Part shown: piece after piece, positions 3,353 through 30,085 of the stretch | Numbering within the stretch: the first letter of the stretch is position 1 | Layout of the letters: each line of letters starts with the position of its first letter | Assembly: GCA_913041495.1 (NCBI GenBank) | Contig: CAJWHT010000036.1 | Span: forward strand, 1-37,154 | Length of the DNA: 37,154 nucleotides | Source of the DNA: an uncultured Desulfobacteraceae bacterium | GTDB taxonomy: Bacteria > Desulfobacterota > Desulfobacteria > Desulfobacterales > Desulfobacteraceae | Direction: 5' to 3' | Notes under the pieces: generated by a model | What the model was told of the DNA's origin: nothing | The model's database searches: none | The model's input: only the letters and a program-made list of their open reading frames with translations | Translations under genes and position numbers: made by a program

Positions 3353-3416
3353 CGGGAAGGGACGGTTGCGGCTGGCAACCGGGGATTCAAACCCAAAAAA
3401 GGAGCCTTTTAAGCCC

Positions 3417-4946: not shown

Positions 4947-4959
4947 ATCAGGCTTGCTC

Positions 4960-6882
4960 ATGGCTGAAAAAGTTCAGAATAAAACCAAAGCGGAACTGAT
5001 GCAGGTGATATCGGACCTGCGTAAAGAGGTATCCGAGCTGAAAAGAGCCGGGTCTGAAAATCTTGCCGCCGTGATCCGTGACAGCGGGGACGGTATCCTG
5101 GTGGTGGACAGTGAGGGGACGATACTTCTGGCCAATCCCTCCGCGGAAAAAATACTCAAACGGCCCACCGATACCATTGTTGGCACAAAGCTTGGGATTC
5201 CCACGGATGGCCGCGGCCGGGTGGAAATCGAAATGATGGGCCCAGGCGGTGAACGTATCCCTGTTGAATTATGGACAAGCGACACCGTTTGGGAAGGCGC
5301 GCCTGCCATCCGGATTTCACTTAGGGATCTGACCGAAACCAGGGCGGTGAAACAGAAACTTGCGCGCCAGAAGATCCTCTTTGAAACCATGTTTAATACC
5401 ATTCCGGACGGCGTGGTGATCACAGACACGCGACGCAGGATCCTTCTGGCCAATAAGGCCATGGAAAAGGAATTCGGCTACCCTCCGGAGGAACTGGTGG
5501 GCAATTCCACGGAAATGTTCTATGCCGGCCGGGAGCAATTTGATCAGACGGGATCAGCCGTTTTTGAGGCGGATGCCCCCAAACAGAGCGGTTTTTATAA
5601 AACCGACTACAGACATAAAAATGGGAACGTTTTTCCCGGGGAGACATTCGGGGCCAGGCTTTTCGATGCCAAAGGCAACTGGATCGGCAACCTGGGTATC
5701 ATGCGGGACATTTCCGCAAAGCAGAGGCAGGAAAGGGAACGGGAGCTGCTCCAGAAACAACTGGCCCAGTCCCAGAAGATGGAATCCATCGGCACCCTTG
5801 CCGGCGGCATCGCCCATGACTTCAACAATATCCTGTCCGCCATCCTGGGATTCAGCGAACTTGCCATGCGGAGCACGGAACCGGACTCAACCATCCGGGG
5901 GGATCTGGAAGAGGTGTATAATGCCGGTCAAAGGGCCAAGGAGCTTGTCAAGCAAATCCTGACCTTTGCCAGGCAGACGGAAGAGGAACGCCAGCCGCTG
6001 CAGTTCAGCTCGATTATCAAAGAGGTGGCCAAGTTCCTTCGCTCCTCCATACCGACCAGTGTGGATATGGTGGTTGATATAAACAGCCGGGGAATCATCC
6101 TGGGGAATCCGACACGGGTCCACCAGGTGGTGATGAACCTGTGCACCAATGCCGTTCAGGCCATGGAGGATGACAAGGGCAAACTGCGGATTTCCGTCCA
6201 AGATATTGTGCTGGACAGCGATGGGGAAAACCGGCTGCTAAAACTGCCGGAGGGTGAGTATATCCAGGTCCGGGTGGCCGATAACGGCAAAGGCATCTTG
6301 CCGCAGCACCTGGATATGATTTTTGAACCCTATTTTACCACCAAGGAAATGGACAAAGGTACCGGCCTGGGCCTGTCACTGGTCTACGGTATCATCGAAA
6401 GCTACGGCGGAAAAATTACGGTGGACAGCAAGCCGGGACAAGGCAGTGTGTTCACCTTTTACCTGCCGGTTGTAAGTTCCGGCACAAATGAGTATACCTA
6501 TGAACCGGAAGAATTGCCCCGGGGCAGCGGACGGATCCTTGTGGTGGACGATGAGGCGTCTATTGCCAAGCTGATGAAAAAGATGCTTGAAAGTCTTGGG
6601 TACCAGGTGTTTACACGGACAAGCAGCGTGGAGGCGCTGGCGCTTTTCCGTTCAAAACCCAATGACATTGACCTGGTGCTAACGGATATGACCATGCCCG
6701 ATATGACCGGGGATGAACTGGGGGCGGAGATTTCAGCCATCAGGCCGGATATACCGATTATACTTTGTACGGGCTACAGCCGGAAAATTGCAGGGAAACC
6801 GGTGGGCAAGCACATCCGTAAGGTCATAAATAAGCCCGTCGATCGGAGTGAACTGGCAGTGCTTGTAAAGGAATTGATGTAA
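4960..6882 (+). CDS. PAS-PAS hybrid sensor histidine kinase with C-terminal receiver domain
   Basis: This 640-aa cytoplasmic protein has no clear membrane segments. A short coiled coil leads into two PAS domains (about residues 28-130 and 140-265). Next come a HisKA domain with phospho-accepting His286 (GGIAHDFNNIL), an HATPase domain with N-box NLCTNAVQAM, G1 DNGKGI and G2 GTGLGLSL, and a receiver domain with DDEASI, phospho-acceptor Asp576 (LTDMTMPD) and NKPVD. The H-box type is that of hybrid kinases that feed a phosphorelay. The start chosen is ATG 4960, after the kaiC stop; an upstream ATG at 4867 would overlap kaiC by 80 nt. Its position after kaiBC makes it the candidate output kinase of the Kai module, analogous in role to SasA or CikA. 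That link rests on gene order alone. Confidence 0.93.
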   Translation: MAEKVQNKTKAELMQVISDLRKEVSELKRAGSENLAAVIRDSGDGILVVDSEGTILLANPSAEKILKRPTDTIVGTKLGIPTDGRGRVEIEMMGPGGERIPVELWTSDTVWEGAPAIRISLRDLTETRAVKQKLARQKILFETMFNTIPDGVVITDTRRRILLANKAMEKEFGYPPEELVGNSTEMFYAGREQFDQTGSAVFEADAPKQSGFYKTDYRHKNGNVFPGETFGARLFDAKGNWIGNLGIMRDISAKQRQERERELLQKQLAQSQKMESIGTLAGGIAHDFNNILSAILGFSELAMRSTEPDSTIRGDLEEVYNAGQRAKELVKQILTFARQTEEERQPLQFSSIIKEVAKFLRSSIPTSVDMVVDINSRGIILGNPTRVHQVVMNLCTNAVQAMEDDKGKLRISVQDIVLDSDGENRLLKLPEGEYIQVRVADNGKGILPQHLDMIFEPYFTTKEMDKGTGLGLSLVYGIIESYGGKITVDSKPGQGSVFTFYLPVVSSGTNEYTYEPEELPRGSGRILVVDDEASIAKLMKKMLESLGYQVFTRTSSVEALALFRSKPNDIDLVLTDMTMPDMTGDELGAEISAIRPDIPIILCTGYSRKIAGKPVGKHIRKVINKPVDRSELAVLVKELM

Positions 6883-7424: not shown

Positions 7425-7570
7425 CCGGGGGGCAGATCCATGCTTGCACATCCTTAAGACAGGCCTTATCTTCTTTATCAGCCGTTCCATGTGGTATCCC
7501 TTGATGAAAAGAGGGAATGGAACAAGCGCAACCCACCTTAAAAATTGTCCTGGACCGGAAAGGAAGATCA

Positions 7571-8773
7571 ATGAAGACGTATACCTTTCAAGACCGGGCC
7601 AGTTTTAACATGGCCGTTGCCTGGACTTTAGGCGACACCACCCACACAGACCATTTCTATGTCCACCGCCTTAACCCCTGGCGGGATCTTTTCCCCGGTA
7701 GTTTTTTGGAACAGGGACTCAAGGCCCTGGCCGAAGGGCCGGTATCCCGTGAGTTTTGCCCCGGAGAACTGGTGCCGGCCTTTAACCCGGCCTTGGTGAA
7801 GACCGTTTCCAGGGACCGGATCAATACGGATTTTCAAAGAATAGTTGCCGGCAGGTTTTATCCCCAGGGAATGGTGTCCGGCATCCCGGGGGTGTTCCGG
7901 GGAAATATGACGCCGTACCGCTGCCTTGAAAAGGACAGCCATCGTATCCTGGGGGATTTTAACCATCCATTGTCGAGATTCCCTTTAAGGGTTACCCTGT
8001 CCGGTTTAAAGACCGGTCAGGCAAAGATGGAACGGGGTGGTTCCTGCACCGACTGGATGGAGATGGCGCTGACAGGGCCGGGCATGCAGGCCCGGGACAG
8101 CGCCTATCCTGAACTGACCGCTGCCATGGGACCTGCGGATGTCCGGCGGGCGGACGAAGGCCCGGATGAATTGTTTTACGGGCAGGCGCGGTTTGTCCAT
8201 CATATTGACACCCATGTGGTTCAATGCCTTACGGACTGGTACGCCACCCAGGTATCACCGGATGACAGGGTACTGGACCTTATGGCGGGCTGGACATCGC
8301 ATTTGCCCGACGGGCTGCATCCGGCCGAGGTTTTCGGCCTCGGCCTGAATGAACCGGAACTTTCGGCGAACAGGCACTTGACCGGGTTTACGGTGCAGGA
8401 CCTTAACCGCAGACCCGTCCTCGATTTTCCTGAGAACCGCTTTGACCGGGTGATCTGTTCCCTTTCCGTGGAATACCTCACCGATCCTTTGGCCGTATTC
8501 AGGCAGGTGCAAAGGGTTCTTGCGCCGGGCGGAACATTTTCAGTGGCCTTTTCCAACCGCTGGTTTCCGGAAAAGGCAATTGCCCTCTGGCCGGATCTCC
8601 ACGAGTTTGAGCGCCTGGGACTGGTGACGGATTTTTTCAGGGAGGCCGGGGGATTCTCCGACCTGTCCACGGTTTCTTTCCGGGGACATCCCAGGCCTGC
8701 GGATGACAGATACTACCCCGGCCTGAGATTGTCCGATCCTTTATTTGCTGTGACGGGCCGCAAAGCGGCCTGA
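7571..8773 (+). CDS. SAM-dependent methyltransferase with SlyD/FKBP-like N-terminal region
   Basis: The protein is 400 aa. Residues ~220-370 form a class I methyltransferase fold: the glycine-rich motif is atypical (VLDLMAGWTSHLP), followed by the acidic strand and the FDRVICSLSVEYLTDP and RVLAPGGTFSV motifs typical of methyltransferase type 11. The N-terminal half contains GDFNHPLS...LRVTL (residues ~130-145), which resembles the NHPLAGK...F.V signature of SlyD-type FKBP isomerases and suggests a fused or derived domain. I chose ATG 7571, preceded by AAAGGAAGATCA, rather than an in-frame ATG at 7517. The substrate cannot be deduced. It stands alone between sixA and the convergent flavin reductase gene. 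Confidence 0.78.
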   Translation: MKTYTFQDRASFNMAVAWTLGDTTHTDHFYVHRLNPWRDLFPGSFLEQGLKALAEGPVSREFCPGELVPAFNPALVKTVSRDRINTDFQRIVAGRFYPQGMVSGIPGVFRGNMTPYRCLEKDSHRILGDFNHPLSRFPLRVTLSGLKTGQAKMERGGSCTDWMEMALTGPGMQARDSAYPELTAAMGPADVRRADEGPDELFYGQARFVHHIDTHVVQCLTDWYATQVSPDDRVLDLMAGWTSHLPDGLHPAEVFGLGLNEPELSANRHLTGFTVQDLNRRPVLDFPENRFDRVICSLSVEYLTDPLAVFRQVQRVLAPGGTFSVAFSNRWFPEKAIALWPDLHEFERLGLVTDFFREAGGFSDLSTVSFRGHPRPADDRYYPGLRLSDPLFAVTGRKAA

Positions 8774-14248: not shown

Positions 14249-14407
14249 AGTGGATGTCTCCTTTCATCGCCGGGGCCGGCCAGTAAAACGGAAAGTTAAT
14301 ATCCCTGAACAGCCCACATTGTGACCCATTGTGCGCAAAACATCAAGAAAAAACACGGGTTGGGCGATTCGCATCAAAATGCATAGTAATATTTCCCATA
14401 TGCCTTG

Positions 14408-14421
14408 CCGGACAGGTCCGG
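14408..14421. repeat. Short palindrome in the divergent PAS / PAS-LuxR intergenic region
   Basis: CCGGACAGGTCCGG has perfect 6-bp arms around a 2-base centre. It lies 62 nt upstream of the PAS-LuxR start, in the 234-nt gap between divergent genes. It could be an operator, perhaps for the LuxR-type protein. Only one copy was found here. Confidence 0.3.
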
Positions 14422-14482
14422 AGTTTACACAGATAAAAAACTAGGGTTTAATGGGCCAGACAAAACTTTAGGAAAAAACGGC

Positions 14483-15373
14483 ATGACAGATCTCCATCTG
14501 ACATATTCGGATCAATTGATCCGCAGTATTTTCGATTCCTTATCCGCCCATATCGCCATTATTGACCACCGCGGCCGTATCCTTGAAACCAACGCGGCAT
14601 GGCGAAATTTCTCCCGGGATAATCGGCAGGACTCCGGTGAACCTTCCCAAATCATTGACTTTACCGGTATGAACTATCTGCACATCTGTGAAGCGGCTAC
14701 CGACGAGGGGGCCCGGGATGCGTGGAACGTTGCCGGGGGAATCCGGGAAGTGATTCAAAAAAAGAGGGATGAATTTTTGTACGACTACCCCTGTCATTCC
14801 CCGGAGGGTAAACGCTGGTTTTATATGCGGGCCATCCGGATGGCGGGTGCGGACCCGGTGCAGGTCATTGTCAGCCACGAGGACATCACCGAACTCAAAC
14901 TGGCCCAGGAGTCCTTGAAACAGCATCAGGACATTTTAGAGGAGCAAAACCAGAGGCTGGAAGAGGCCAATATCGCCCTCAAGGTATTGATTGAGCAGCG
15001 GGAAAAGGACAAGGCGGAAACCGAGAAGCACTTTTTAACCCATATCCGGGCTTTTGTGCTGCCCTATATCAGCAAGCTTAAATCCGGCAACCTGGGTGAG
15101 CGGGACAGGACATTACTGGGAATTGTGGAGGACCAGCTCAACCAGGTGGTTTCCCCTCTTATGCAGCGGATGGACAACGCCGGCGTCATGCTCACCCCCC
15201 AGGAGATGCAGGTGGCCGCACTGGTGAAAGAGGGGAAAACCACGGCGGAAATTGCGGATGTCCTCTACATTTCAGAGACCACCGTCAGTTTTCACCGCAA
15301 AAACTTGCGTACCAAGCTGGGTTTGAAAAACAAGGGAACGAATCTAAGGTCCTTTCTTTTGTCCATGTCATAA
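14483..15373 (+). CDS. PAS domain - LuxR-type helix-turn-helix transcriptional regulator
   Basis: The 296-aa protein has an N-terminal PAS domain (residues ~8-135; AIIDHRGRILETNAAW is the first strand pair and HEDITELK the final strand). A coiled-coil helix (~135-185) acts as linker. A LuxR/FixJ-type DNA-binding domain is at the C-terminus (LTPQEMQVAALVKEGKTTAEIADVLYISETTVSFHRKNLRTKLGL). The architecture is common in deltaproteobacteria and suggests an intracellular small-molecule or redox sensor controlling transcription. I chose ATG 14483 (MTDLHLTYS) rather than an in-frame TTG at 14405, because the latter adds 26 non-conserved residues. The divergent PAS-FapA operon is the most obvious target, by position only. 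Confidence 0.88.
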   Translation: MTDLHLTYSDQLIRSIFDSLSAHIAIIDHRGRILETNAAWRNFSRDNRQDSGEPSQIIDFTGMNYLHICEAATDEGARDAWNVAGGIREVIQKKRDEFLYDYPCHSPEGKRWFYMRAIRMAGADPVQVIVSHEDITELKLAQESLKQHQDILEEQNQRLEEANIALKVLIEQREKDKAETEKHFLTHIRAFVLPYISKLKSGNLGERDRTLLGIVEDQLNQVVSPLMQRMDNAGVMLTPQEMQVAALVKEGKTTAEIADVLYISETTVSFHRKNLRTKLGLKNKGTNLRSFLLSMS

Positions 15374-16781: not shown

Positions 16782-17285
16782 ATGAGTGCATATGATTTTA
16801 ACGCCGCAGAAGTATTTGATATGGCCATAAAGATAGAGGAAAACGGCGCAAAGTTTTACCGCCGGGCGGCAGAACTGCAAAAAGACGCGGCAGATAAGGA
16901 ATTCTTAGAAACCCTGGCCAAAATGGAAGACCGCCATAAAGCCACCTTTGAGGAAATGAAGGCCACCCTGTCCGATGCCGAAAGCAAGGGCACGGTATTT
17001 GATCCCAAAGAGGAGCTGAGCCTCTACCTGAATGCCATGGCCGATGCCCATGGCGGGGAAGGGGACCCGGATGTGGTGGAAAGCTTCAGCGGTAAAGAGT
17101 CCATGGCGGAAATCGTTGCCATTGCCGTGGGCCTGGAAAAAGAAAGCATCCTGTTTTATGTGGGCATTAAAGATATGGTGCCGCCCAAGTTCGGCCAGGA
17201 TAAGATCGATACCATTATCAAAGAAGAAACCCAGCATGTGGCGCAACTCAAAGGGTTTTTGAAAAAGGCGGAAAAGCTGGCTTAA
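16782..17285 (+). CDS. Rubrerythrin/ferritin-like di-iron protein without a rubredoxin domain
   Basis: The 167-aa protein is a four-helix bundle of the ferritin-like family. The iron-binding pattern appears as EENGAKFYRRAAE and KMEDRHKATFEEM in the first half and GLEKESILFYVGIKD and EETQHVAQLKG in the second, giving the two E...ExxH repeats. The C-terminal rubredoxin module of classical rubrerythrin is missing. Such erythrin-type proteins are common in anaerobes and act in peroxide detoxification or iron handling in the cytoplasm. The start has a strong site (ATAAGGAGATACCC). The gene has its own promoter and terminator, so it is monocistronic. The dyad over the -35 suggests a redox- or metal-responsive repressor, which is an inference. 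Confidence 0.88.
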   Translation: MSAYDFNAAEVFDMAIKIEENGAKFYRRAAELQKDAADKEFLETLAKMEDRHKATFEEMKATLSDAESKGTVFDPKEELSLYLNAMADAHGGEGDPDVVESFSGKESMAEIVAIAVGLEKESILFYVGIKDMVPPKFGQDKIDTIIKEETQHVAQLKGFLKKAEKLA

Positions 17286-18441: not shown

Positions 18442-19431
18442 ATGGAAATTTTCATCTCTTCAGTTGTGTCTACGGCGAACCTGGTATTCCGGTTGGGCTC
18501 GGTGATGTTTGTCAGCCTTTTTGGTATTGAACTGTTCATGCAGATGGGGCTGATGCGGTACCTGAGACCCGTGGGCCGGCCTGTGGCAAAGGCCGCCCGC
18601 CTGCCGGCCGAAGCCGCGGTGAGCTTCCTTGCTGCCGTGGGATCCATGATTGCCGCCCATACCATGGCGGCCCGTTTTCATGCGGACGGCCGGCTGACGG
18701 ACCGGGAACTTCGGCTCACCGGCATCCTGAACACGGTCCCCTTCCATGTGAAAGAGACCCTGACTTTTCAGCTGCCCATTGTCCTGCCCCTGCTGGGTTT
18801 CCGTCTGGCCATGATTTATATCACGGCGTTCTGGCTTACCGGTGTGCTAAAGCTGGGTTACGTATTGGCTTGCGGGCATGCCGGGGATGCGGCCGGTGGG
18901 GCCATCCGGGGAAATCGCGATGATCCGTTTTTCGCCTATGAATGTGCGCCGGATGATGCGGACTGCCGCAACCGCAGCTTCCTTATGCTGCTCAAGGACA
19001 CCTGGGATGCCAGAAAGCGAATGTTTTTAAAGATGACCGGACTGCTGGCCGGTGTGACCCTGATCATTCAGATGCTCACCCTTACCGGCATGCTCTCCTT
19101 TGTGGAGGCGATGATTTCCCCCGTGACCGACGCCCTGGGACTTTCCCCGGCCGTTATCGGTCCGGTTACCGCCTATATATTCAGCCCCACGGTGGGAATT
19201 ACCTATATGTCAAACCTCATGGCACAGGGCAGTGTCACGGGCTACGAGGCGATTGCCGCCCTGATGGCAGGGGGCCTGATCATGATTCCGGTCACCCGCC
19301 TGCGCCGCACCCTGCCCCGGTATATGGCCATTTTCGGCAGCCGTAACGGGGCTGTGATCTGCGCCATGACCATGGGGTTTGCCCTCCTGTCCCGGATACT
19401 GGTGCTGGTCTGGATCATCCTGTTCTACTAG
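18442..19431 (+). CDS. Nucleoside recognition (Gate) domain membrane protein
   Basis: The 329-aa polytopic membrane protein has about seven to eight hydrophobic segments. Two copies of a Gate-like pattern are visible: GSMIAAHTMAARFHADGRL... LTGILNTVPFHVKET in the first half, and VIGPVTAYIFSPTVGITYMSNLMAQGSVTG in the second, each with the Gly/Ser/Asn-rich broken helix seen in nucleoside-recognition proteins. Its transport substrate is unknown; related proteins include YjiH- and spore-maturation-like families. I chose ATG 18442 because the frame upstream (from 17980) overlaps uvsE on the other strand and has no such hydrophobic pattern. The ribosome site is weak. It lies upstream of the small-peptide region but is separated from it by 159 nt with a dyad, so it is probably a separate transcript. 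Confidence 0.82.
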   Translation: MEIFISSVVSTANLVFRLGSVMFVSLFGIELFMQMGLMRYLRPVGRPVAKAARLPAEAAVSFLAAVGSMIAAHTMAARFHADGRLTDRELRLTGILNTVPFHVKETLTFQLPIVLPLLGFRLAMIYITAFWLTGVLKLGYVLACGHAGDAAGGAIRGNRDDPFFAYECAPDDADCRNRSFLMLLKDTWDARKRMFLKMTGLLAGVTLIIQMLTLTGMLSFVEAMISPVTDALGLSPAVIGPVTAYIFSPTVGITYMSNLMAQGSVTGYEAIAALMAGGLIMIPVTRLRRTLPRYMAIFGSRNGAVICAMTMGFALLSRILVLVWIILFY

Positions 19432-19450
19432 GTTCCGTCATTGCCATATA

Positions 19451-19486
19451 AATGATAGGTATTAACTATCATTAAACCCTTTTTTT
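19451..19486. promoter_or_regulatory. AT-rich inverted repeat followed by a T-run: operator or terminator
   Basis: AATGATAG (19451-19458) and CTATCATT (19466-19473) are perfect 8-bp arms around a 7-nt centre. Seven Ts follow at 19480-19486. It may terminate the upstream membrane-protein gene. Alternatively, the TGATAG...CTATCA dyad could be a regulator site for the small-peptide operon. Confidence 0.45.
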
Positions 19487-19590
19487 AACCGTATTGCACT
19501 ATTTTTTGTGATGACTAACTTAGTATCAAATGCCAGACACGGCAGGCCTTAAAAAAGCCACAACAGCAAACCACACCAAGGAGAAATACA

Positions 19591-19734
19591 ATGACTGAGA
19601 ATAGAGTAGAAAACTACGTTGAAACTGAAAAAGAAAGAGAAGAAGGACACGTTGACACCCGCCACAGCAACTTTGAATGCGAAAGCCCCGACGCACACCT
19701 GGGATGCGATATGGGCATCGACGTGGCAGGCTAA
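19591..19734 (+). CDS. Small acidic 47-aa peptide A, first of a tandem pair
   Basis: This short gene is supported by a strong ribosome site (AAGGAGAAATACA) before ATG 19591 and by a second copy 90 nt downstream that matches at 40 of 47 residues. It encodes a charged helical N-terminus (MTENRVENYVETEKER), then EGHVDTRHSNFEC, and an acidic Gly-containing tail (HLGCDMGIDVAG). There are two Cys and three His, and no signal peptide or membrane segment. The differences between copies are mainly conservative (T/S, V/I), which points to selection on protein. The layout (charged leader, short Cys/Gly/Asp tail, next to an ABC exporter) recalls a RiPP precursor, but no modifying enzyme is seen here. A small metal-binding protein is the main alternative. 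Family unknown. Confidence 0.72.
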   Translation: MTENRVENYVETEKEREEGHVDTRHSNFECESPDAHLGCDMGIDVAG

Positions 19735-19823
19735 CCCACAGCACCACGAAAAACGGCAGAGCTTTAAAGAGAAAAAAGAAAAAAAATAAAAGAGAATACT
19801 AAAAGATAACAAGAGGTGATAAC

Positions 19824-19967
19824 ATGTCAGAAAACAGAGTCGAAAACTACATCGAGAGCGAAAAAGAAAGAAACGAAGGTCATGTGGATACCCGTCACAG
19901 CAACTTTGAATGCGAAAACCCCGACAGGCATCTGGGATGCGATCCGGGAATCGACGTTGCCGGGTAA
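19824..19967 (+). CDS. Small acidic 47-aa peptide B, second of a tandem pair
   Basis: The ATG at 19824 is preceded by AAGAGGTGATAAC. The peptide is the same length as copy A and differs at seven positions (2, 10, 12, 17, 32, 35 and 41). The segment GHVDTRHSNFEC and the tail GIDVAG are identical in both, as are both Cys and all three His. The two variable tail positions (A/R at 35, M/P at 41) fall in the last third, where a processed core would vary. The DNA around both copies is visibly richer in A/T than the flanking genes. A perfect hairpin follows 28 nt after the stop, and the ABC module starts 115 nt downstream. The function is unknown. Confidence 0.72.
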   Translation: MSENRVENYIESEKERNEGHVDTRHSNFECENPDRHLGCDPGIDVAG

Positions 19968-19995
19968 AACAAAGATAACAATCAAGTGACCGAAA

Positions 19996-20018
19996 GCAGA
20001 GCCTCTTTGAGGCTCTGC
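19996..20018 (+). terminator. Perfect hairpin between the peptide pair and the ABC transporter genes
   Basis: GCAGAGCCTC (19996-20005), loop TTT, GAGGCTCTGC (20009-20018): a perfect 10-bp stem. The following CCCTCTTT is only weakly T-rich. It may act as a leaky terminator or RNA-end stabiliser, making the peptides more abundant than the transporter. Confidence 0.7.
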
Positions 20019-20082
20019 CCTCTTTAGCAGCAGTCAAATAAAAAACGATCATAAAATTTCTCGGATACATAGGGGAGCCAAA

Positions 20083-20757
20083 ATGGACATCTGCATCGCA
20101 GGCCTTGACAAGACCTTTGACAACCGTGACCGGGTGATTTTTAAAGATCTTACGGCCACATTTCGCACAGGAAAAACGTCTGTGCTTCTGGGCAAAAGCG
20201 GTGTGGGCAAGTCCAGCCTGCTGAATCTTGTTGCCGGTATTGATACCCCGGACCGGGGGCGGATCCAAATAGGAGACACCGTGGTGTCCGACATGGACGA
20301 TGCGGGGCGGACCCTGTTTCGCCGCCGGCACATCGGTTTCGTCTTCCAGTCCTTTAACCTGATCCCGGTGCTCACGGTCCTGGAAAATGTGGGCCTGGTG
20401 GGGCAGCTTGACGGCCGGCCGGACAGGGATATTAAGGAAAAAGCCGCCTTTCTGCTGGAGACTGTGGGGCTGGCTGACCGCCTGCTGGATTTCCCGGACC
20501 GCCTTTCCGGGGGTGAACAGCAGCGGGTGGCCCTGGCCCGGGCATTGATCAATGATCCTGAGATCATCCTGGCGGACGAGCCCACGGGCAACCTGGACGG
20601 CAAAACCGGCACCGCCGTGCTTGAACTGATCACGGATCAGGCAAAGCGGTTGCATAAGACCCTGGTCATGGTGACCCACAGCCCGGATGCCCTGGCATGG
20701 GCGGATGAGGTCTTCACCGTTGAAAACTATGCCCTGGTTCCGGGGAACGGCATATGA
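20083..20757 (+). CDS. ABC transporter ATP-binding protein, MacB/LolD type (AttE-like)
   Basis: The 224-aa ATPase has all expected motifs in order: Walker A GKSGVGKSSLLN (residues ~37-48), Q-loop FVFQSFNL, signature LSGGEQQRVALARAL, Walker B IILADEPTGNLD and the switch His in VTHSPD. The sequence belongs to the LolD/MacB/FtsE group, which drives FtsX-type permeases in extraction or export of lipoproteins, peptides and other envelope substrates. Its stop overlaps the permease start (ATGA at 20754-20757), so the two are translationally coupled. It follows the two 47-aa peptide genes and their hairpin. With the permease and the AttH-like lipoprotein it matches the AttEFGH layout. Confidence 0.93.
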   Translation: MDICIAGLDKTFDNRDRVIFKDLTATFRTGKTSVLLGKSGVGKSSLLNLVAGIDTPDRGRIQIGDTVVSDMDDAGRTLFRRRHIGFVFQSFNLIPVLTVLENVGLVGQLDGRPDRDIKEKAAFLLETVGLADRLLDFPDRLSGGEQQRVALARALINDPEIILADEPTGNLDGKTGTAVLELITDQAKRLHKTLVMVTHSPDALAWADEVFTVENYALVPGNGI

Positions 20758-23372
20758 GACTTTCCCCCTTGATCCGTACCTGTTTCAGGTCTTCTAAGGC
20801 GCAACTGCTGAGAACTTTCCTGTTGATATTCGGTATCGCCCTGGGGGTGGCCGGCGTTGTCGCCATCGACATTGCCAAGATCTCCGTGAGCAAATCCTTT
20901 GAGCTTTCCACCGCCGCACTGACAAAAAGGGCCACCCATCAGATCACGGGAGCCGATTTTACCGTGCCACAGTCCCTTTTCGTCCGGTTGAGGACGCATC
21001 TTGGCCTTCATAAAACCGCACCGGTCATTGCACGGGAGGTTTTGGTACCCGAACTGGACGGCAGGACCCTCACCCTCATGGGCATTGATCCCTTTTCAGA
21101 ATCCCACTTCAGGGATATCCGGTTTCGAACCGGGACAAACGGGATATCACAGGACAGTGGTGATCCCAGGACCGTGATGACACGCGGTGACGGTGTCATC
21201 CTTTCGGGTTCCCTGGCAGCATCCGGTGAACTTGGGGTGGACTCCGCATTGACGCTGACCTTCGGCGGCCGGGAGGTGACCACCCGCATCGGTGCCCTTT
21301 TGGCCGGCGGTGACAAAAATCCTGCCTTTGACGGCGTGATCCTTGCCGATATTGCCCTGGCCCAGGAGATCCTCGGGATGGGAAACCGGATCAGCCGCAT
21401 CGACCTGGTGCTGGATTCCGATGCCGAAACCGCCCGCGTCCGGGAACTGTTGCCGCCCGGGCTGACCCTTACGAAAACCGAGGACAGAAACCAGACAATC
21501 CGCAGCCTTTCCCGTTCCTTTGAAACCAGTCTCACCGCCTTTTCCATGCTGGTGCTATTCATGGGGATTTTTTTAATTTACAACACTGTCTCCTTTTCCG
21601 TGGCACGCAGGCGGGGGCTGAACGGCACGTTGCGGGCACTGGGGGCCACCCGGCAAGAGATCTTTTTGTCGGTGCAGGCGGAAGTGCTGGTGTATGCGCT
21701 GGCCGGTTCCGCACTTGGGGTGGGACTGGGCATTCTCCTGGGCACGGGTGCGGTAAGGGCGGTTATCGCCACGGTATCGGACATGTACTATACCCTTACC
21801 GTCAGCCGCACGCACATCACTTTCGCCATTCTGCTCAAAGGGGTGCTTGTGGGGATTCTGGCCGCCGTGGGGTCCTCCCTTATGCCCGCGGTCAATGCCG
21901 CCAATACCCGGCCTGTGACCCTGATGCAGCGGTCGGCCTCGGAAAGCCGGCTCTCAGTCTATTTACCCGGCCTGACCACAGGTGGGGTTTTAGCGATTGC
22001 CGCAGCGCTGATCATATTCAACTGGCCAGGAGCTTCCGTGAACCTGGTGTTTGCCGGCGTCTTTCTGATTTTCACCGGCGGTTCCTTTTTGACCCCGGCC
22101 CTGGTGGCGCTCATCACCCGGGGAGCGGATGCCGCAACCGTAAAATTTTCCGGGCGGCACCGGTTGATGCCGGCAATGGCGATGCGGAACGTCCGCCGTT
22201 CCCTGAGCCGGACCAGTGTGCTCATCGCCTCTCTCATGGTGGTGGTTTCGGTTTACATCGGCATCGATACCATGACCCGGAGTTTCAGGCTGTCCATCGT
22301 TCACTGGGTGGACGGCCATATCGGCGGCGATGTCCACGTGGCGTCCCTGGATGACCTGAACCGCTCCCTGGACAAGACCCTGCTGGATAAGATTTTGGCG
22401 ATGCCGGACGTCAGGGCGGTTTCAGCCTACAATATCCACCGTGCCTTTTCCGAAGCCTCAGGGGAAGTGCATATCTTTTCCTATCTGAGGGACCTGTCAA
22501 AAAAAGAGTGGACCTGGCGTTCGCCCGGGGTAAAACGGGACGGGGATGTTGACCGCCTGCTGGAAGACGGCTGGATCATCGTTTCAGAAATCTTTGCCCG
22601 GCAAAACGGGCTTATGCCGGAATCACAGGATGCTTCAGGGGGCCTGTTTGTGGCCATGGATACCCTTAGGGGACCTGAAACCTTCCGGGTGGCAGGCATT
22701 TTCAGGGATTTTTTCATGGGCGGCGGCCGGGTGGTGGTCAGCCGGGAGACCATGAAAACCTTCTGGGGTCATGACGATATCACCGCCATGCAGATTTTTG
22801 TCCACGGTGAGGCCGATGCCAAAAAAAGCGCTGTCCAACGTGTGATGGGCAAGATTCGCGGGATTGACCGGAACGACAATGCCCCGGACGAAACCCCGGG
22901 CAGCGCCCTGTTGAAAATCCGTTCCGGCCTGGACATCAAACAAAGCATCCTGGCCGCTTTTGACAAGACCTTCCTCATCACCTCGGCCCTGCAGGTGCTC
23001 ACTGCCATCGTTGCACTCACCGGTATCATCAACTCGGTGATGGCCCTGATACTGGAACGTGCCCGGGAGCTGGGCATCCTGCGGGCCTGCGGTGCTCTGC
23101 CTTCGCAGGTTCGCACCCTGGTGCTCTGGGAATGTGCCGTTTCCGGTTTTCTGGCAGGTCTTTTGGCCCTGCCTCTGGGGGCCTTTCTCTCCTGGGTGCT
23201 GGTCCATGTGGTGAATTTCAGATCCTTCGGCTGGACCTATGATATGCATCTTTCTGGGGCCACCATGATTCAGGCGGTGGCTTTTTCCGGAACCGCAGCC
23301 CTTTTGGCCGGTATCGCCCCCGCCTTCAGGGCCGGGCGGGTGGACATCGTCAAGGCATTGAGAACGGAGTGA
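20754..23372 (+). CDS. FtsX/MacB-type ABC transporter permease, 872 aa (AttF/AttG-like)
   Basis: This long permease has an N-terminal membrane anchor (TFLLIFGIALGVAGVVAIDI) and a periplasmic domain (~residues 45-265). A first FtsX unit follows (about 265-400, with ARRRGLNGTLRALGATRQEI as the coupling motif), then a central pair of membrane segments (~405-450). A second periplasmic domain and a second FtsX unit (ARELGILRACGALPSQVRTLVLWE) end the protein. Two FtsX units in one chain do the job that AttF and AttG share elsewhere. Such permeases do not move substrates through a channel but transmit ATP-driven force to periplasmic partners. The next gene, a lipoprotein, starts 4 nt after the stop and is the likely partner. 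Confidence 0.9.
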   Translation: MRLSPLIRTCFRSSKAQLLRTFLLIFGIALGVAGVVAIDIAKISVSKSFELSTAALTKRATHQITGADFTVPQSLFVRLRTHLGLHKTAPVIAREVLVPELDGRTLTLMGIDPFSESHFRDIRFRTGTNGISQDSGDPRTVMTRGDGVILSGSLAASGELGVDSALTLTFGGREVTTRIGALLAGGDKNPAFDGVILADIALAQEILGMGNRISRIDLVLDSDAETARVRELLPPGLTLTKTEDRNQTIRSLSRSFETSLTAFSMLVLFMGIFLIYNTVSFSVARRRGLNGTLRALGATRQEIFLSVQAEVLVYALAGSALGVGLGILLGTGAVRAVIATVSDMYYTLTVSRTHITFAILLKGVLVGILAAVGSSLMPAVNAANTRPVTLMQRSASESRLSVYLPGLTTGGVLAIAAALIIFNWPGASVNLVFAGVFLIFTGGSFLTPALVALITRGADAATVKFSGRHRLMPAMAMRNVRRSLSRTSVLIASLMVVVSVYIGIDTMTRSFRLSIVHWVDGHIGGDVHVASLDDLNRSLDKTLLDKILAMPDVRAVSAYNIHRAFSEASGEVHIFSYLRDLSKKEWTWRSPGVKRDGDVDRLLEDGWIIVSEIFARQNGLMPESQDASGGLFVAMDTLRGPETFRVAGIFRDFFMGGGRVVVSRETMKTFWGHDDITAMQIFVHGEADAKKSAVQRVMGKIRGIDRNDNAPDETPGSALLKIRSGLDIKQSILAAFDKTFLITSALQVLTAIVALTGIINSVMALILERARELGILRACGALPSQVRTLVLWECAVSGFLAGLLALPLGAFLSWVLVHVVNFRSFGWTYDMHLSGATMIQAVAFSGTAALLAGIAPAFRAGRVDIVKALRTE

Positions 23373-23375
23373 AAA

Positions 23376-24539
23376 ATGATGCGGATTAAAACGAAACTAT
23401 TGTTGCTGCTGACGGCATGCCTGATGCTGGCAGGTATCGGTTGTGGGGCACCGCCGGCCACTGAAGAGACGGTGAATATCGCCGCGGCCCTGTCTTCGGA
23501 AACCGGTGATGACTGTTATGCCCAGGCCCGGTTGCCGGGTGCTATCCGTTTTCCGGAAGATTACGGTCCCCACAAAAGATTCAAAACCGAATGGTGGTAT
23601 TATACCGGCAATCTGAAAACCCGGGAGGGCAGGCATTTTGGTTTTCAGCTCACCTTTTTCCGGCAGGCCCTGGACTGCCGAGTGGCCCAAGGGGAATCTG
23701 CCTTCCGGACCAACCAGCTTTACTTTGCCCATTTTGCCGTCACGGATACGCAGAATAAACAATTTTTATCCGCCCAGCGCATGAACCGGGGCAGCCTTGG
23801 CATCGCCGGGGCCCAGGCCTTACCCTTTAAGACCTGGATTGACGACTGGCAGGCGGCCCAGGTTGAAAGGGAAGAAGGAGCGCTACGCCTGACCGCAAGG
23901 GCCAGATCGCAAAAGCAGACCGGCAGCCCTGAGTTTTCCGTTTCCCTTACCCTCACCCGTGAAAAGCCTATGATTCTTCAGGGTGACCGGGGCTTGAGCC
24001 GGAAGGGTCCCGGCCCTGCGGACGCCTCTCACTACTATTCTTTTCCGGGCATGTCAGTCCGGGGAACTGTAACCGTCAAAGGGGAATCCGCAGATGTGAC
24101 CGGCCATGCCTGGTTTGACCATGAGTGGAGCACTTCGGCTCTGGGCGCGGATGTGGCCGGCTGGGACTGGTTTGCCCTGCGCATCAATGAGGGGCCAAAA
24201 ACAGGCACCGACCTGATGGTGTGCCTGGTACGCAGATCCGACGGCACCCCCAACGGCTATGGATTCGGCTCGCTCTCTCGCCTGGACGGCAGCATCGCCA
24301 TCCTGTCGGAATCCGATTTTGCCATCACCGTGAACCGTACCTGGACAAGTCCGGACTCGGGCCGGACCTATCCTGCGGGCTGGACCATCCGCCTGACGAC
24401 TTATGGCCTTGAAATGAAAGTGAGCCCGGTCATGGAGGGCCAGGAGCATACCGGTATGTTTCCGTATTATGAGGGGGCGATTCAGGTGGAGATGTCCGAT
24501 GGCAGGGGGCGTGGGTATGTGGAGATGACCGGGTATTGA
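23376..24539 (+). CDS. AttH/CrtC-like lipocalin-domain lipoprotein
   Basis: The 387-aa protein has an N-terminal signal (two Arg/Lys, LLLLLTACLMLAG) ending at IGC, a near-match to a lipobox, so it is probably lipid-anchored. After the signal, FKTEWWYYTGNL, FGFQLTFFRQ and HAWFDHEWSTSALG...WDWFALRI are the hallmark motifs of the AttH/hydroxyneurosporene synthase (CrtC) family, a double lipocalin-like barrel. In AttEFGH loci this protein accompanies the ABC transporter. Its biochemical role is unresolved; lipid or hydrophobic-ligand handling is plausible. The gene begins 4 nt after the permease stop and shares its transcript. The CrtC name does not imply carotenoid chemistry here, as no carotenoid genes are nearby. 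Confidence 0.87.
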   Translation: MMRIKTKLLLLLTACLMLAGIGCGAPPATEETVNIAAALSSETGDDCYAQARLPGAIRFPEDYGPHKRFKTEWWYYTGNLKTREGRHFGFQLTFFRQALDCRVAQGESAFRTNQLYFAHFAVTDTQNKQFLSAQRMNRGSLGIAGAQALPFKTWIDDWQAAQVEREEGALRLTARARSQKQTGSPEFSVSLTLTREKPMILQGDRGLSRKGPGPADASHYYSFPGMSVRGTVTVKGESADVTGHAWFDHEWSTSALGADVAGWDWFALRINEGPKTGTDLMVCLVRRSDGTPNGYGFGSLSRLDGSIAILSESDFAITVNRTWTSPDSGRTYPAGWTIRLTTYGLEMKVSPVMEGQEHTGMFPYYEGAIQVEMSDGRGRGYVEMTGY

Positions 24540-26269: not shown

Positions 26270-27115
26270 ATGCAGACATTGGATCATACGTCCCCCATCA
26301 TTGTCTTCACGGATCTGGACGGCACCCTTCTGGACCATGATACTTACGGGTTCGCACCGGCCTGCGATGCCGTGTCGTTCCTGAAAAAGGCGGGCATCCC
26401 CCTGATTCTCAATTCCAGTAAGACCTGTGCTGAGATTTTAGGTATCCGCAAAGAACTTGGCAACCGCCATCCGTTCATTGCGGAAAACGGGTCGGTGGTG
26501 GGGATTCCTGACGGATATTTTGTCGGGAGGTCACCGGAAGACATGGGTTTTACAATGGAAAACGGCCTCTGGATCAAGTGTATCGGCGGAGAAAGGGACG
26601 ATATCCTGGATGTGCTGCACAGGCTTCGAAACACGGGTGGTTTTCCCTTTGAAGGCTTTGCCGATATGACGGTCGCAAGGCTTGCAAAGATCACAGGGTT
26701 GTCCGAAAAAAAGACAGGGCTTGCGAATCAGCGGCTGAGCACAGAACCCATCCGCTGGCTGGGAACGGACGACCTGTGGCACCGTTTTTCCCGGGAAATT
26801 GCCGATGCTGGACTGGGATGGGTTCAGGGCGGCCGGTTTATTTCCATCTCAAGGCCATTCGATAAAAGGGACGGGGTGGAACTGCTCCTGGATTTTTACA
26901 GGGGTAAGTTTCCCAAGTCCCCCGTCACCATAGGCCTTGGGGACAGTCCCAACGACCGGGCCATGCTGGATATCATGGATATTGCCGTTGTGATCCGGTC
27001 CGGGCGTTCGGACCGGGTGGCCCCGGAAAACGCAGGGACGGTGATCCGGACAACCCTCAGGGGGCCGCATGGATGGCAGCAGGCCATGGATATGATATTT
27101 AAACGAAACACGTAA
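26270..27115 (+). CDS. Glucosyl-/mannosyl-3-phosphoglycerate phosphatase (HAD IIB)
   Basis: The 281-aa protein has the HAD motifs in order: motif I FTDLDGTLLD (two Asp nucleophile/acid), motif II LILNSSKTCAEI and motif IV GLGDSPNDRAMLD. The NSSKT and PFIAENGSVVGIP stretches and the overall length match the MpgP/GpgP phosphatases that dephosphorylate glycosyl-3-phosphoglycerate to the compatible solute glycosylglycerate. The next gene, 23 nt downstream, is a matching glycosyltransferase of the GpgS type, which favours the glucosyl substrate. The start ATG 26270 lacks a strong ribosome site. Confidence in the HAD subfamily is high; glucosyl rather than mannosyl is inferred from the neighbours. 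Confidence 0.85.
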   Translation: MQTLDHTSPIIVFTDLDGTLLDHDTYGFAPACDAVSFLKKAGIPLILNSSKTCAEILGIRKELGNRHPFIAENGSVVGIPDGYFVGRSPEDMGFTMENGLWIKCIGGERDDILDVLHRLRNTGGFPFEGFADMTVARLAKITGLSEKKTGLANQRLSTEPIRWLGTDDLWHRFSREIADAGLGWVQGGRFISISRPFDKRDGVELLLDFYRGKFPKSPVTIGLGDSPNDRAMLDIMDIAVVIRSGRSDRVAPENAGTVIRTTLRGPHGWQQAMDMIFKRNT

Positions 27116-27138
27116 GGCCTATTAAGGAGGCATCAGCA

Positions 27139-28362
27139 GTGGGTGATTTTCATCAGAACGGCATTGTGACCATTTTGCACAACCTTTCCCGGCAGCCCGT
27201 GGAAGAGCTTTCCGCACAACTGGACGCGTTTTCAAAGCGCCGGCGGCTGGGCCTTGTGCTGCCCTCCCTGTATTCGGAGCTGGAAGGCCCGGCTTTAGGG
27301 CAGATTATTGATAAACTCAAAGATGTATCTTACCTGAACCAGATTGTTATCGGCCTGGACCGGGCGGATGAGGCCCAGTACCGGCACGCCCTCTCCTTTT
27401 TTTCCGGCCTGCCCCAGCACCACCGCATCCTGTGGAATGACGGGCCGCGGCTGAAAGCCATAGATGAAAAACTGGCAAAGCTGACGGTGGCCCCCACCGA
27501 GCCTGGCAAGGGCAGAAATGTCTGGTATTGTTTCGGGTACGTCATGGCATCGGATATGGCCGATGCCGTTGCCCTGCACGACTGTGATATCCTCACCTAT
27601 GACAGCTCTCTTCTGGCCCGCCTGATTTATCCGGTGGCCCATCCGGATTTCACCTATAAGTTCTGCAAGGGATATTATGCCCGGTTCACCGAGTCCAAGG
27701 TGAACGGCCGGGTCAGCCGCCTTTTGGTCTCTCCGTTGCTGGCAGCTTTGAAACAGATCTGCGGTGCCACAGATTCCCTGGATTACCTGGAAAGTTTCAG
27801 GTATCCCCTGGCCGGGGAGTTTTCCATGCGGACCGAGGTGCTCAATGACCTGAGAATGCCCACGGATTGGGGGCTGGAGGTGGGTATCCTGTACGAGATG
27901 AAACGGAACCACAGCCTCAGCCGGATCTGCCAGGTGGATATTGCAGATACTTACGACCACAAACATCAGCCCCTGAGCCGCTCGGATGCTGCCGCAGGCC
28001 TGTCAAAGATGAGCATTGACATTGCAAAGGCCATTTTCAGGAAACTGGCCACGGAAGGGGAGGTGTTTTCTGCGGAAAAATTCAGGAGCATCAAGGCGAC
28101 CTATTACCGGAAGGCTCTGGACTTCCTTGAAATTTACCACAACGATGCGGTCATGAACGGCCTGAATCTGGACCGCCACCAGGAGGAGCAGGCCGTGGAA
28201 TTGTTTGCCAAAAATATTTTGCAGGCCGGCCGGGATTTCCTGGAAGAACCCCACAAGACCCCGTTTATCCCGGCCTGGAACCGGGTGAAAAGCGCACTGC
28301 CCGAAATCATGGAAGAGCTCAAAGATGCCGTTGAAAAAGACCACGCCGAATTTTCCGCTTGA
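27139..28362 (+). CDS. Glucosyl-3-phosphoglycerate synthase-like glycosyltransferase (GT81/GpgS type)
   Basis: The 407-aa protein starts at GTG 27139, with AAGGAGG 8 nt upstream. A GT-A fold is indicated by IVIGLDRADEAQY, by GKGRNVWYCFGYVMA and by the metal-binding DxD motif in ALHDCDIL. The block YKFCKGYYARF...GRVSRLLVSPLL, followed by PLAGEFSMR and DWGLEVGIL, matches GpgS and related mannosyl enzymes. It would join NDP-glucose to 3-phosphoglycerate in the cytoplasm. The phosphatase gene lies directly upstream and the phosphorylase gene overlaps its last 38 nt, forming a dedicated operon. The C-terminal ~100 residues (helical) are less familiar. The donor nucleotide is not determined. Confidence 0.87.
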   Translation: MGDFHQNGIVTILHNLSRQPVEELSAQLDAFSKRRRLGLVLPSLYSELEGPALGQIIDKLKDVSYLNQIVIGLDRADEAQYRHALSFFSGLPQHHRILWNDGPRLKAIDEKLAKLTVAPTEPGKGRNVWYCFGYVMASDMADAVALHDCDILTYDSSLLARLIYPVAHPDFTYKFCKGYYARFTESKVNGRVSRLLVSPLLAALKQICGATDSLDYLESFRYPLAGEFSMRTEVLNDLRMPTDWGLEVGILYEMKRNHSLSRICQVDIADTYDHKHQPLSRSDAAAGLSKMSIDIAKAIFRKLATEGEVFSAEKFRSIKATYYRKALDFLEIYHNDAVMNGLNLDRHQEEQAVELFAKNILQAGRDFLEEPHKTPFIPAWNRVKSALPEIMEELKDAVEKDHAEFSA

Positions 28363-30085
28363 CGATTTTAGCTCCCTGAGGGAGCGGGTCAACGCCCATC
28401 TGAAACGGATCTACCCGGACCGGGATGCAAACACGCTTGCGGATAAAACCATGGCGGTGTTCAGCCTGGATCCGGACACGCCCGGGAAGGCCCCGGCAGA
28501 TATCCCCCGCTGGTCCCAGGCGGACATGGTGATGATCACCTACGGCAACACGATGGTTGAACCGGACCAGAAGCCGTTGAAAACCCTGCACCGGTTTTTG
28601 ACCACCTATCTGGAGGACCTGTTTTCCATCGTTCATATCCTTCCTTTTTTCCCGTATTCCTCGGATGACGGATTCGCCGTCATGGACTACTTTGCGGTAA
28701 ATCCGGCCCTGGGGGGGTGGAAGGATATCGAAAGGATCGCAGGACGTTATAATCTCATGGCGGATCTCGTGGTCAATCACACCTCCTCCCGGGCCAGGTG
28801 GTTTGAAAATTTTAAAAACGGCCGGCATCCCGGAAAGGATTTCTACGTGGCTGTGGATCCCGCATCCGACCTGTCGCAGGTAATCCGGCCCCGGACAAGC
28901 CCCCTGCTGCGGGAGGTGGCCACACCGGACGGCACGCGTCATGTCTGGTGCACCTTCAGCCATGACCAGGTGGATCTGGACTTTAAAAACCCGGAGGTGC
29001 TGCTGGCCTTTTTATCCATCATCCGTCTTTACCTGGACAAGGGGGTGGGGATATTCCGGCTGGATGCCGTGGCCTTTCTCTGGAAGGAGATCTGCACCAC
29101 CTGCCTCCACCTGGAGCAGACCCATGAGATCATCAAACTCTTTCGAACCCTGATCGAAGCCTATGCCCCCCGTGCCCTTATCATCACGGAAACAAACGTT
29201 CCCAGCCACGAGAATATCTCCTACCTGGGAAAGGGGGACGAGGCCCATGTGATTTATAATTTTCCCTTGCCGCCGCTGCTGCTGAACACCATGGTCACGG
29301 GGAGCAGCCATAAACTTATGGCCTGGCTCAAAGAGCTGCCGGAACCGATCTGCGGTACCACCTGCCTGAACTTTATCGCCTCCCATGACGGTATCGGCCT
29401 GCGGCCGGTGGAAGGCTGGCTGTCAGACCGGGAGATGGCTGATTTGCTCGGCTGTATGACGGCCTTCGGGGGGAAAATCTCCACCCGGGCCCTCAACGAC
29501 CAGGAAGTCAATCCCTACGAGATCAACATCAGCCTGTGGGATGCCGTGAAAGGCACCATCACTTGTGGCCCTGACGGCTTCCAGGCCGATCGGTTCATCT
29601 GCGCCCATGCCGTGATGCTTGCCCTGCGGGGGATACCGGCATTTTACATCCACAGCCTCCTGGCCACGGAAAACGACTATGAGCGGCGGGACAATCTTGT
29701 GGCCAACCGGGCTGTCAACCGCCATATCTGGGATTACGGCCTCCTGTGCCAAAAGCTGGGGGATACGGCTTCCCACCACCACCACATTTTTTCACGTCTA
29801 TGCGCCCTTGCAGCCGTAAGAAAGGCACAAGCCACGTTTCATCCGGATGCGGAACAGGTCATTCTGGATCTGGGAGACGGCCTGGTGGCCTTTTTACGGC
29901 GGTCACAAAAGAACAGGACCATCCTTTGTCTCCACAATATAACGGACCAACCCATTGAGGTTCCGGCGGACCTTTTGCCCGGAGGGGGCAAAAAGGAGCA
30001 AACGGATCTGGTGACAGGCACGACCGTGGCCACGGACGGCGGCGTTGAACTTGCCCCCTATCGGTTTATGTGGCTTGCGGGATAA
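28325..30085 (+). CDS. Sucrose phosphorylase-family GH13_18 enzyme, probable glucosylglycerate phosphorylase
   Basis: The 586-aa protein is a GH13 subfamily 18 phosphorylase. The (beta/alpha)8 motifs appear in order: HILPFFPYSSDDGFAV near the start, LMADLVVNHTS, the nucleophile Asp in IFRLDAVAFLWKE, the acid/base Glu in LIITETNVPSHENI, and the transition-state Asp in FIASHDGIGLRP. Sucrose, glucosylglycerate and YcjM-type phosphorylases share these motifs, but the neighbouring synthase and phosphatase make glucosylglycerate the likely substrate, releasing glucose 1-phosphate and glycerate. ATG 28325 overlaps the synthase gene by 38 nt, indicating coupled translation. Specificity is therefore context-based, and the family assignment is firm. 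Confidence 0.85.
   Translation: MPLKKTTPNFPLDDFSSLRERVNAHLKRIYPDRDANTLADKTMAVFSLDPDTPGKAPADIPRWSQADMVMITYGNTMVEPDQKPLKTLHRFLTTYLEDLFSIVHILPFFPYSSDDGFAVMDYFAVNPALGGWKDIERIAGRYNLMADLVVNHTSSRARWFENFKNGRHPGKDFYVAVDPASDLSQVIRPRTSPLLREVATPDGTRHVWCTFSHDQVDLDFKNPEVLLAFLSIIRLYLDKGVGIFRLDAVAFLWKEICTTCLHLEQTHEIIKLFRTLIEAYAPRALIITETNVPSHENISYLGKGDEAHVIYNFPLPPLLLNTMVTGSSHKLMAWLKELPEPICGTTCLNFIASHDGIGLRPVEGWLSDREMADLLGCMTAFGGKISTRALNDQEVNPYEINISLWDAVKGTITCGPDGFQADRFICAHAVMLALRGIPAFYIHSLLATENDYERRDNLVANRAVNRHIWDYGLLCQKLGDTASHHHHIFSRLCALAAVRKAQATFHPDAEQVILDLGDGLVAFLRRSQKNRTILCLHNITDQPIEVPADLLPGGGKKEQTDLVTGTTVATDGGVELAPYRFMWLAG

Follow-up and report, generated by a model that had tools for sequence, protein, structure and literature searches.

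Three kinds of described system come closest to the locus reported here. AttEFGH-like modules combine a LolD-type ATPase, an FtsX permease and a CrtC/lipocalin protein; for NE1406, a protein with the AttH fold, genome context ties it to LolD ABC genes, and lipid metabolism and oxidative stress have been discussed for it (PMC2954199). PAS-LuxR activators such as PimM of Streptomyces, VqmA of Vibrio and EL222 join a PAS sensor to a GerE-type helix-turn-helix (HTH) and are associated with palindromic sites, the symmetric form CTVGGGAWWTCCCBAG being given for such regulators in an excerpt of PMC9774167. Finally, among the singlet-oxygen and light regulons (sigmaE-ChrR of Rhodobacter, LitR of Pseudomonas), the LitR light regulon includes ufaM, SDR and FAD oxidoreductase genes (PMC9758184, excerpt), and UfaM, UfaD and the DUF1365-containing UfaO are furan fatty acid genes, with O2 as the oxygen source (PMC7380195, excerpt). 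Here we describe a locus on a 37,154-nt stretch of a contig of an uncultured Desulfobacteraceae bacterium (CAJWHT010000036.1, assembly GCA_913041495.1; the whole stretch is called the window, and the genes and sites of the locus, its regulator gene included, lie on the + strand) in which two tandem genes for 47-aa Cys/His proteins stand between a conserved promoter box and an AttEFGH-like operon. Judged by sequence comparison, the conserved context of this peptide family is its promoter and a PAS-LuxR regulator, not an exporter.

The two genes, read as open reading frames and supported by homologues and dN/dS, lie at 19591-19734 (copy 1, MTENRVENYVETEKEREEGHVDTRHSNFECESPDAHLGCDMGIDVAG) and 19824-19967 (copy 2, MSENRVENYIESEKERNEGHVDTRHSNFECENPDRHLGCDPGIDVAG). 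As an earlier note made from the letters of this DNA had reported, the two proteins are identical at 40 of 47 positions; the genes share 113 of 141 nucleotides, and 18 of the 28 differences are silent (pS 0.639, pN 0.089), giving a dN/dS of about 0.07, far below one. Across the family pN was below pS in all 528 pairs of 47-aa copies and all 120 pairs of 44-aa copies. These comparisons show that the resemblance of the copies is not due to chance and that the family is under strong purifying selection. The strong ribosome sites that the note assigned to each gene are present (AAGGAG and GAGGTGAT), and at least seven contiguous matches to the complement of the anti-Shine-Dalgarno sequence were found for 31 of 55 family copies compared with 57 of 540 control genes. 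Its hairpin between the peptide genes and the ABC operon was also recovered, at 19996-20018 (GCAGAGCCTC-TTT-GAGGCTCTGC); as read from the sequence, the hairpin has a weak T run in the window and is terminator-like in some relatives, a terminator search called none at this hairpin, and by eye a similar GC-rich hairpin follows the peptide gene in 10 of 15 loci inspected. Transcription may thus read through into the ABC genes. What did not hold was the placing of variable sites chiefly in the C-terminal third, since four of the seven differences between the copies fall within the first 17 residues and, family-wide, it is the N-terminal half that varies and the C-terminal half that is nearly fixed.

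Frame-conserving homologues were found among the kin of the window's organism. At a threshold of 0.001 the family was matched in 94 of 335 genomes of the class, with one to seven matches per genome, all of them in the window's own genome or in the same genus, family or order, and the reading frame is retained in nearly all matches listed from these genomes and from 98 relatives. A phylum-wide draw of 297 genomes yielded three matches, namely the window's genome and two others of its order. Titles of the 79 loci retained in a scan of named genomes are of Desulfobacterales taxa, Olavius-associated kin or unplaced 'Deltaproteobacteria', with one exception (L127; L and G numbers are our own labels for loci and genomes), in which the peptide and the membrane peptide described below stand on a contig of a metagenome-assembled genome labelled Bacteroidales (UBA10428); this contig is probably mis-binned. 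The family consensus is DY-E----GHxDTRxxNFxCxxxDxxLGC[DN]xG[IV]DVxG-end, with H20, D22, T23, R24, C30, D34, G38, C39, G42, D44, V45 and G47 invariant in a 27-row alignment. Among 143 distinct tails from all fetched loci, one of them plainly unrelated, GC..G[IV]DV.G forms the extreme C-terminus in 138 and HxDxR occurs within the last 30 residues in 135. No family matching the peptide was found in Pfam, NCBIfam or PHROGs, the sole match from PDB was a PET-hydrolase loop (E 0.33) that we take as chance, searches of plasmids, phages and viruses gave no relative, and an Rfam scan of 19300-20200 gave no match, in keeping with the note's view that the family is undescribed. Decayed copies stand behind boxes or adjoin the membrane peptide (L189, L308, L312 and L329), from which it seems that the family is gained and lost over time.

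The product is predicted to be a soluble, acidic small protein that is probably disordered. Its several gene copies, each with a strong ribosome site in the window, point to a product that is presumably abundant and would act stoichiometrically, not as a catalyst. Because H20, C30 and C39 are invariant and a Cys precedes the GC in 140 of the 143 tails, metal binding is possible. High copy number and strong ribosome sites, together with the Cys, His and Tyr content, the disorder-like prediction and a regulon of stress type, would also suit a non-specific, sacrificial scavenger of oxidants or electrophiles in which composition, not structure, is selected. We regard this as unlikely, since near-invariant residues (D22, G38, G42, D44, V45, G47, H20, C30 and C39) point to specific contacts.

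Upstream of the pair, conserved columns of a promoter alignment define a sigma-70-type promoter (-35 TTGCAC, 19494-19499; -10 TAACTT, 19516-19521) that a simple consensus scan does not call, preceded at 19453-19477 by the palindromic box TGATAGGTATTAACTATCATTAAAC, a predicted activator site. The distance from the conserved palindrome, TGATAGnTTTTAnCTATCATTAAAC, to the TTG of the -35 element was measured with 29 of 41 loci as input and the TTG sought at 37-43 nt; 32 of the 44 first copies have a spacing of 39 nt, and a rescan without such selection likewise places the box in 32 of them. The promoter model and score matrix were built by sequence alone from 30 of the 32 promoters with this spacing. 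The resulting R1 model matches the window's box at E 8.4e-16, the site itself belonging to the training set. For the core, ATAGnTnnnAnCTAT, 20 of the 44 first copies reach a score of 9 or 10 (maximum 10), compared with about 0.4 expected from shuffles; in one of the 20 (L057) it lies away from its box, and the window's core agrees at all 10 positions. The fixed geometry of box and promoter is thus shown by comparison.

Directly upstream of the peptides at six loci (L039, L041, L042, L045, where a fragment was called, L053 and L061) lies a gene for a PAS-LuxR regulator. The window's copy, the proposed activator of the box, is at 14405-15373 (GerE in Pfam, 7e-16; PAS_4 at 3.8e-4, below cut-off), about 4 kb from its box with other genes between; one of these, at 16782-17285, encodes a rubrerythrin-like protein. 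Its LuxR HTH is evident from sequence, and the PAS and LuxR folds from an AlphaFold2 model (pLDDT 83) of a PAS domain, a long helical linker and an HTH, for which Foldseek ranked VqmA first (TM 0.31 across the full query) and also returned LOV-type PAS structures and EL222. In an alignment of 46 rows, some duplicate, the sensor part has Cys95 in all 45 rows with a residue there and Cys130 in 44 of 45. A profile from the six peptide-adjacent loci matched 82 of the 335 class genomes at 1e-60. Several of the further sites found with the box model stand directly 3' of this gene. At 30 of 40 regulator loci the 400 nt downstream of the regulator gene hold a box that outscores the 99th percentile of 309 control windows, and at none of the 40 does one lie upstream; among these loci, L237 shares sequence with L053, one of the training promoters, and L217 and L218 are near-copies from one genome. 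In a held-out set, the box was present at 17 of the 20 peptide loci whose genome has the regulator and at 6 of the 20 whose genome yielded none (Fisher p 0.001, kinship ignored; one locus, L293, was too short for the promoter and scored as a miss). Peptide and regulator occur together in 59 of the 335 genomes and neither occurs in 218, kinship again being ignored. Linkage of the regulator gene to the box is thus shown by comparison, and we strongly infer that the regulator acts at it.

Our first reading of the box was as an OxyR site, which would make the small proteins peroxide-induced and leave the PAS-LuxR gene uninvolved. The palindrome fits ATAGnTnnnAnCTAT, which we take to be the OxyR half-motif, at all 10 positions in the window. 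That reading lost weight once the box was seen next to the PAS-LuxR gene at 30 of 40 loci and was found to track the regulator across genomes; by eye, a second half-motif by the -35 element is not evident in the window, and the symmetric site reported for PAS-LuxR regulators in the excerpt of PMC9774167 is similar in form to the box. Control by OxyR is therefore, in our judgement, rather improbable. The system would differ from known PAS-LuxR activators in its Cys95/Cys130 sensor, its long helical linker and its regulator-box-target units, and from PimM, whose site is stated to lie in the -35 region, in a box that would be centred at about -66.

The genes behind the box are of several kinds. 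A scan of 13 genomes with the box model returned peptide sites and further sites, and 18 of the 19 further sites with E of at most 0.011 were fetched, omitting a partial one in G010. Behind one of these (L194) is a peptide-free ATPase-FtsX-CrtC/lipocalin operon whose products share 57, 56 and 50% identity with those of the window, and behind another (L193, in G068) are Chalcone_3, SnoaL, an SDR-like gene, an FAD oxidase, DUF1365, CMAS and DUF2878. Others head DUF2177 (L201), outer-membrane efflux and HlyD genes (L192 and L197, the former followed by an RND-like gene), a 64-72-aa small protein (L196, L199 and L200), a methyltransferase-like protein (L203), a decayed peptide gene (L189) and a peptide gene interrupted by a run of N (L190); the remaining sites have mixed or unassigned downstream genes. 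At regulator loci the products encoded after the box include 64-aa small proteins, a methyltransferase-like protein of about 400 aa, an sll1863-like protein and the peptide itself (L234 and L237), and in L240, which ends at a contig end, the order is regulator, box, ATPase and permease, the last two 55 and 47% identical to the window's. A second scan covered 28 regulator-positive genomes and found sites in 25; 20 of the 24 sites unassigned to peptide or regulator were read (two in G021 and one each in G210 and G097, seemingly near contig ends, were left out) and classed by BLAST against reference proteins, partly by eye. CMAS-containing operons stand at four of the 20 (L297, L299, L310 and L316, the match being distant in the last two), of which L297 adds an FAD oxidase and DUF1365, L299 adds DUF1365 and L310 adds Chalcone_3. 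HlyD/RND-set efflux genes stand at two (L304 and L311), and what we read as a membrane-peptidase-like first gene at two (L302 and L304). Also found were a family of about 110-122 aa (L303 and L309), an sll1863-like gene (L307), a 64-aa family member (L314) and two decayed peptide genes, recognised by BLAST in L308 and by eye in L312. The box is thus shown by comparison to be common to lipid, ABC and efflux operons.

Within this set, candidate UfaMDO genes, with DUF1365 (UfaO), FAD oxidase (UfaD) and CMAS (UfaM), stand together behind the box in G068 (L193) and G066 (L297). DUF1365 occurs in 19 of 59 relatives and, on the same stretch, lies within about 6 kb of a peptide, regulator or box in G004, G026, G035 and G066. 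The likeness to the sigmaE-ChrR and LitR regulons lies in the FAD oxidoreductase, DUF1365 and CMAS genes of L193 and L297 and the DUF1365 and CMAS genes of L299; the differences are that the hosts here are sulfate reducers, that the box is linked to a PAS-LuxR gene, and that Chalcone_3, RND, LolD-FtsX-lipocalin and small-protein genes are extra targets. Two of the small families deserve separate mention. One, of 63-72 aa with two conserved Cys (M[LI]CS...LAF.CH...SLVAV), stands behind regulator and box (L196, L199, L200, L217, L218, L233, L235, L242-L247, L250 and L314) and its matches in Pfam (HTH_1, for one member) and NCBIfam all fall below threshold. The other, of about 110-122 aa and unnamed, carries the motif RIDGRTFVNYAEY at or near box sites (L201, L204, L303 and L309), and its L204 member has no match in Pfam. 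The window also encodes a methyltransferase-like protein (7517-8773, + strand) that is 43% identical to the protein of about 400 aa after regulator and box in L225, with no strong box beside it in the window.

The operon following the hairpin has the AttEFGH-like make-up, a name we take from the earlier note: a LolD-like (AttE-like) ATPase at 20083-20757 (ABC_tran 2.6e-32; closest NCBIfam models YbbA/FtsE/LolD, below cut-offs), an 872-aa FtsX-type permease at 20754-23372 (FtsX 5.7e-27; ADOP-like below cut-off) and a CrtC/Lipocalin_9 (AttH-like) protein at 23376-24539 (CrtC 5.7e-63, Lipocalin_9 3.3e-35), which lies outside the 19591-23372 range that the note covered. This confirms ATPase, permease and CrtC/lipocalin genes in one operon (20083-24539). 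Compared with described modules, the window has one large permease, and tandem small proteins behind a defined box. The earlier note had suggested a test for conserved linkage between peptide and attE-like genes, and had considered a secreted or modified peptide. An attH-like relative adjoins the peptide in only 8 of 120 loci, in six distinct genomes besides the window's (some loci being too short to reach attH), and in the window and 40 fetched loci no neighbour gene is common to most peptide loci. By eye there is no signal peptide or GG leader, and no maturase is found among the 25 commonest of 201 families in 116 neighbour proteins; these 116 were drawn from 163 candidates after dropping proteins over 700 aa, some regulator rows and some near-duplicates, and families with two or fewer matches possibly fall outside the 25. 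Neighbours that stand out at some peptide loci are PAS-LuxR regulators, Chalcone_3, GPH-type MFS_2 and SOUL, and a fused DUF1365/CMAS-type protein lies near the peptide in L044. A ribosomally synthesized and post-translationally modified peptide, whose tail GCDPGIDVAG would be matured and exported by the ABC transporter, would account for short tandem genes, a conserved C-terminal tail and an ABC operon downstream in the window and six other genomes. It is nevertheless very improbable, given the few linked loci, the FtsX/lipocalin type of the ABC genes, the want of a maturase among those families, the ABC operons behind boxes without a peptide in L194 and L240, and the conservation of the whole C-terminal half with a variable N-terminal part where a conserved leader and variable core would be expected. 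The link between peptide and ABC genes looks like common control by one promoter box, not the pairing of a precursor with its exporter.

In other genera a second peptide often accompanies the first. Among 130 distinct downstream stretches, 34 distinct hydrophobic peptides of 26-31 aa (MIGTxLTIxxLGYFINxC...CK[IL]) lie 3' of the soluble peptide gene, as selected with a home-made rule that gave 36 matches, one false (L138) and one counted twice in L075. The gap from the soluble peptide's stop is usually 17-21 nt and widens to 48-92 nt in L054, L055, L089 and L096, all from Desulfobacteraceae, and in L123. In 27 rows M1, I2 and two Cys are invariant, with a fixed C[KE][LIV]-like end. A profile gave 32 matches in 15 of 32 chosen genomes, 30 of them adjoining a soluble-peptide gene or relic by coordinates; the solitary ones are in the window's own genome (L327, G000:C55:27951-28034) and in G008 (L328), in which no soluble peptide was found. 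The membrane peptide is absent from the window's peptide locus and lacking in about 95 of the 130 stretches. A search of PDB, the only collection it was compared with, gave two weak myomesin matches (E 0.012) taken as chance. The arrangement resembles other small stress proteins and tiny membrane peptides of bacteria in being short, regulated and multi-copy with a membrane partner, here of 26-31 aa; it differs in that no sequence kin of the soluble peptide were found in Pfam, NCBIfam, PHROGs or PDB. A toxin-antitoxin-like pair, in which the soluble protein neutralises the two-Cys peptide, would fit the adjacency of 30 of the 32 matches and the decay of some copies, and is the least probable of the alternatives in view of the solitary membrane peptides, the many stretches without one and the control held in common with lipid operons.

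On balance we think it probable that the window pair encodes small Cys/His proteins made in quantity under a PAS-LuxR activator of a membrane-stress regulon. The activator would bind the palindrome, whose centre lies 32 bp 5' of the -35 element, and drive high output of a small, soluble, acidic and probably disordered protein from both copies, and the weak terminator of the window may allow part of the transcription to continue into the ABC genes. Furan/cyclopropane fatty-acid, LolD-FtsX-CrtC/lipocalin and RND efflux genes also stand behind this box, from which we infer that the regulon responds to membrane or lipid damage, which may be of the oxidant, electrophile or photo-oxidative type. More tentatively, the conserved His and two Cys of the tail may hold a metal or contact a thiol partner on the inner side of the membrane, a task in which the two-Cys membrane peptide may share in many species. 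A fuller picture, more speculative still, is of a two-peptide membrane-stress device in which a disordered His/Cys protein of 44-49 aa and a two-Cys membrane peptide of 26-31 aa would form a metal- or disulfide-linked complex at the inner membrane. The device would be encoded in up to seven copies per genome under a PAS-LuxR sensor, which itself has two near-invariant Cys, and would be part of a response that corresponds, in an anaerobe, to the singlet-oxygen/furan-fatty-acid response.

Several observations weigh against control by the PAS-LuxR regulator or against its proposed role. The box is absent in 12 of the 44 first copies, eight of which (L040, L043 and L046-L051) have a second, box-free class of promoter. 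No box above threshold stands at ten of the 40 regulator loci, three of the 28 regulator-positive genomes have no site at 1e-4, six of the 20 held-out genomes with no detected regulator carry the box all the same, and among the 335 class genomes 35 that have the peptide lack the regulator and 23 that have the regulator lack the peptide. Seven of the 20 further sites have no assignable target, and DUF1365 is also present in genomes without a detected regulator. The window's genome has a single strong R1 box, a strict pattern scan finding none besides the window's, and no DUF1365 gene, so the furan reading cannot fully hold there. As to the protein itself, AlphaFold2 of the peptide alone is of low confidence and largely unstructured (pLDDT 62), and the tail has exceptions in L273, with LGR instead of LGC, and L329, a remnant without Cys. 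The box-free promoters have, by eye, a short stem right after the -10 element that seems to co-vary (AAAGAC/GTCTTT, AACGAC/GTCGTT and AAAGGC/GCCTTT).

Elsewhere in the window, a KaiC-like protein overlaps a PAS hybrid histidine kinase (3366-6882), and mannosyl-3-phosphoglycerate-phosphatase-like, glucosyl-3-phosphoglycerate-synthase-like and sucrose-phosphorylase-like genes follow one another at 26270-30085, perhaps as glucosylglycerate-type osmolyte genes.

Judged from search listings, we found no description of this regulon in the literature on sulfate reducers. The novelty of the small proteins looks high and that of the regulon moderate, its lipid operon being of a known kind under what is apparently a different type of control. 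The locus offers an entry point to the regulon in the form of a predicted activator, a predicted site of fixed geometry and defined target families, which include two families of small proteins for which neither Pfam nor NCBIfam gives a match above cut-off. Finally, because the synthesis of furan fatty acids uses O2 in those species where it has been studied, according to the excerpted account (PMC7380195), the presence of furan operon genes behind a stress-type box raises the question of how sulfate reducers meet oxygen or light.

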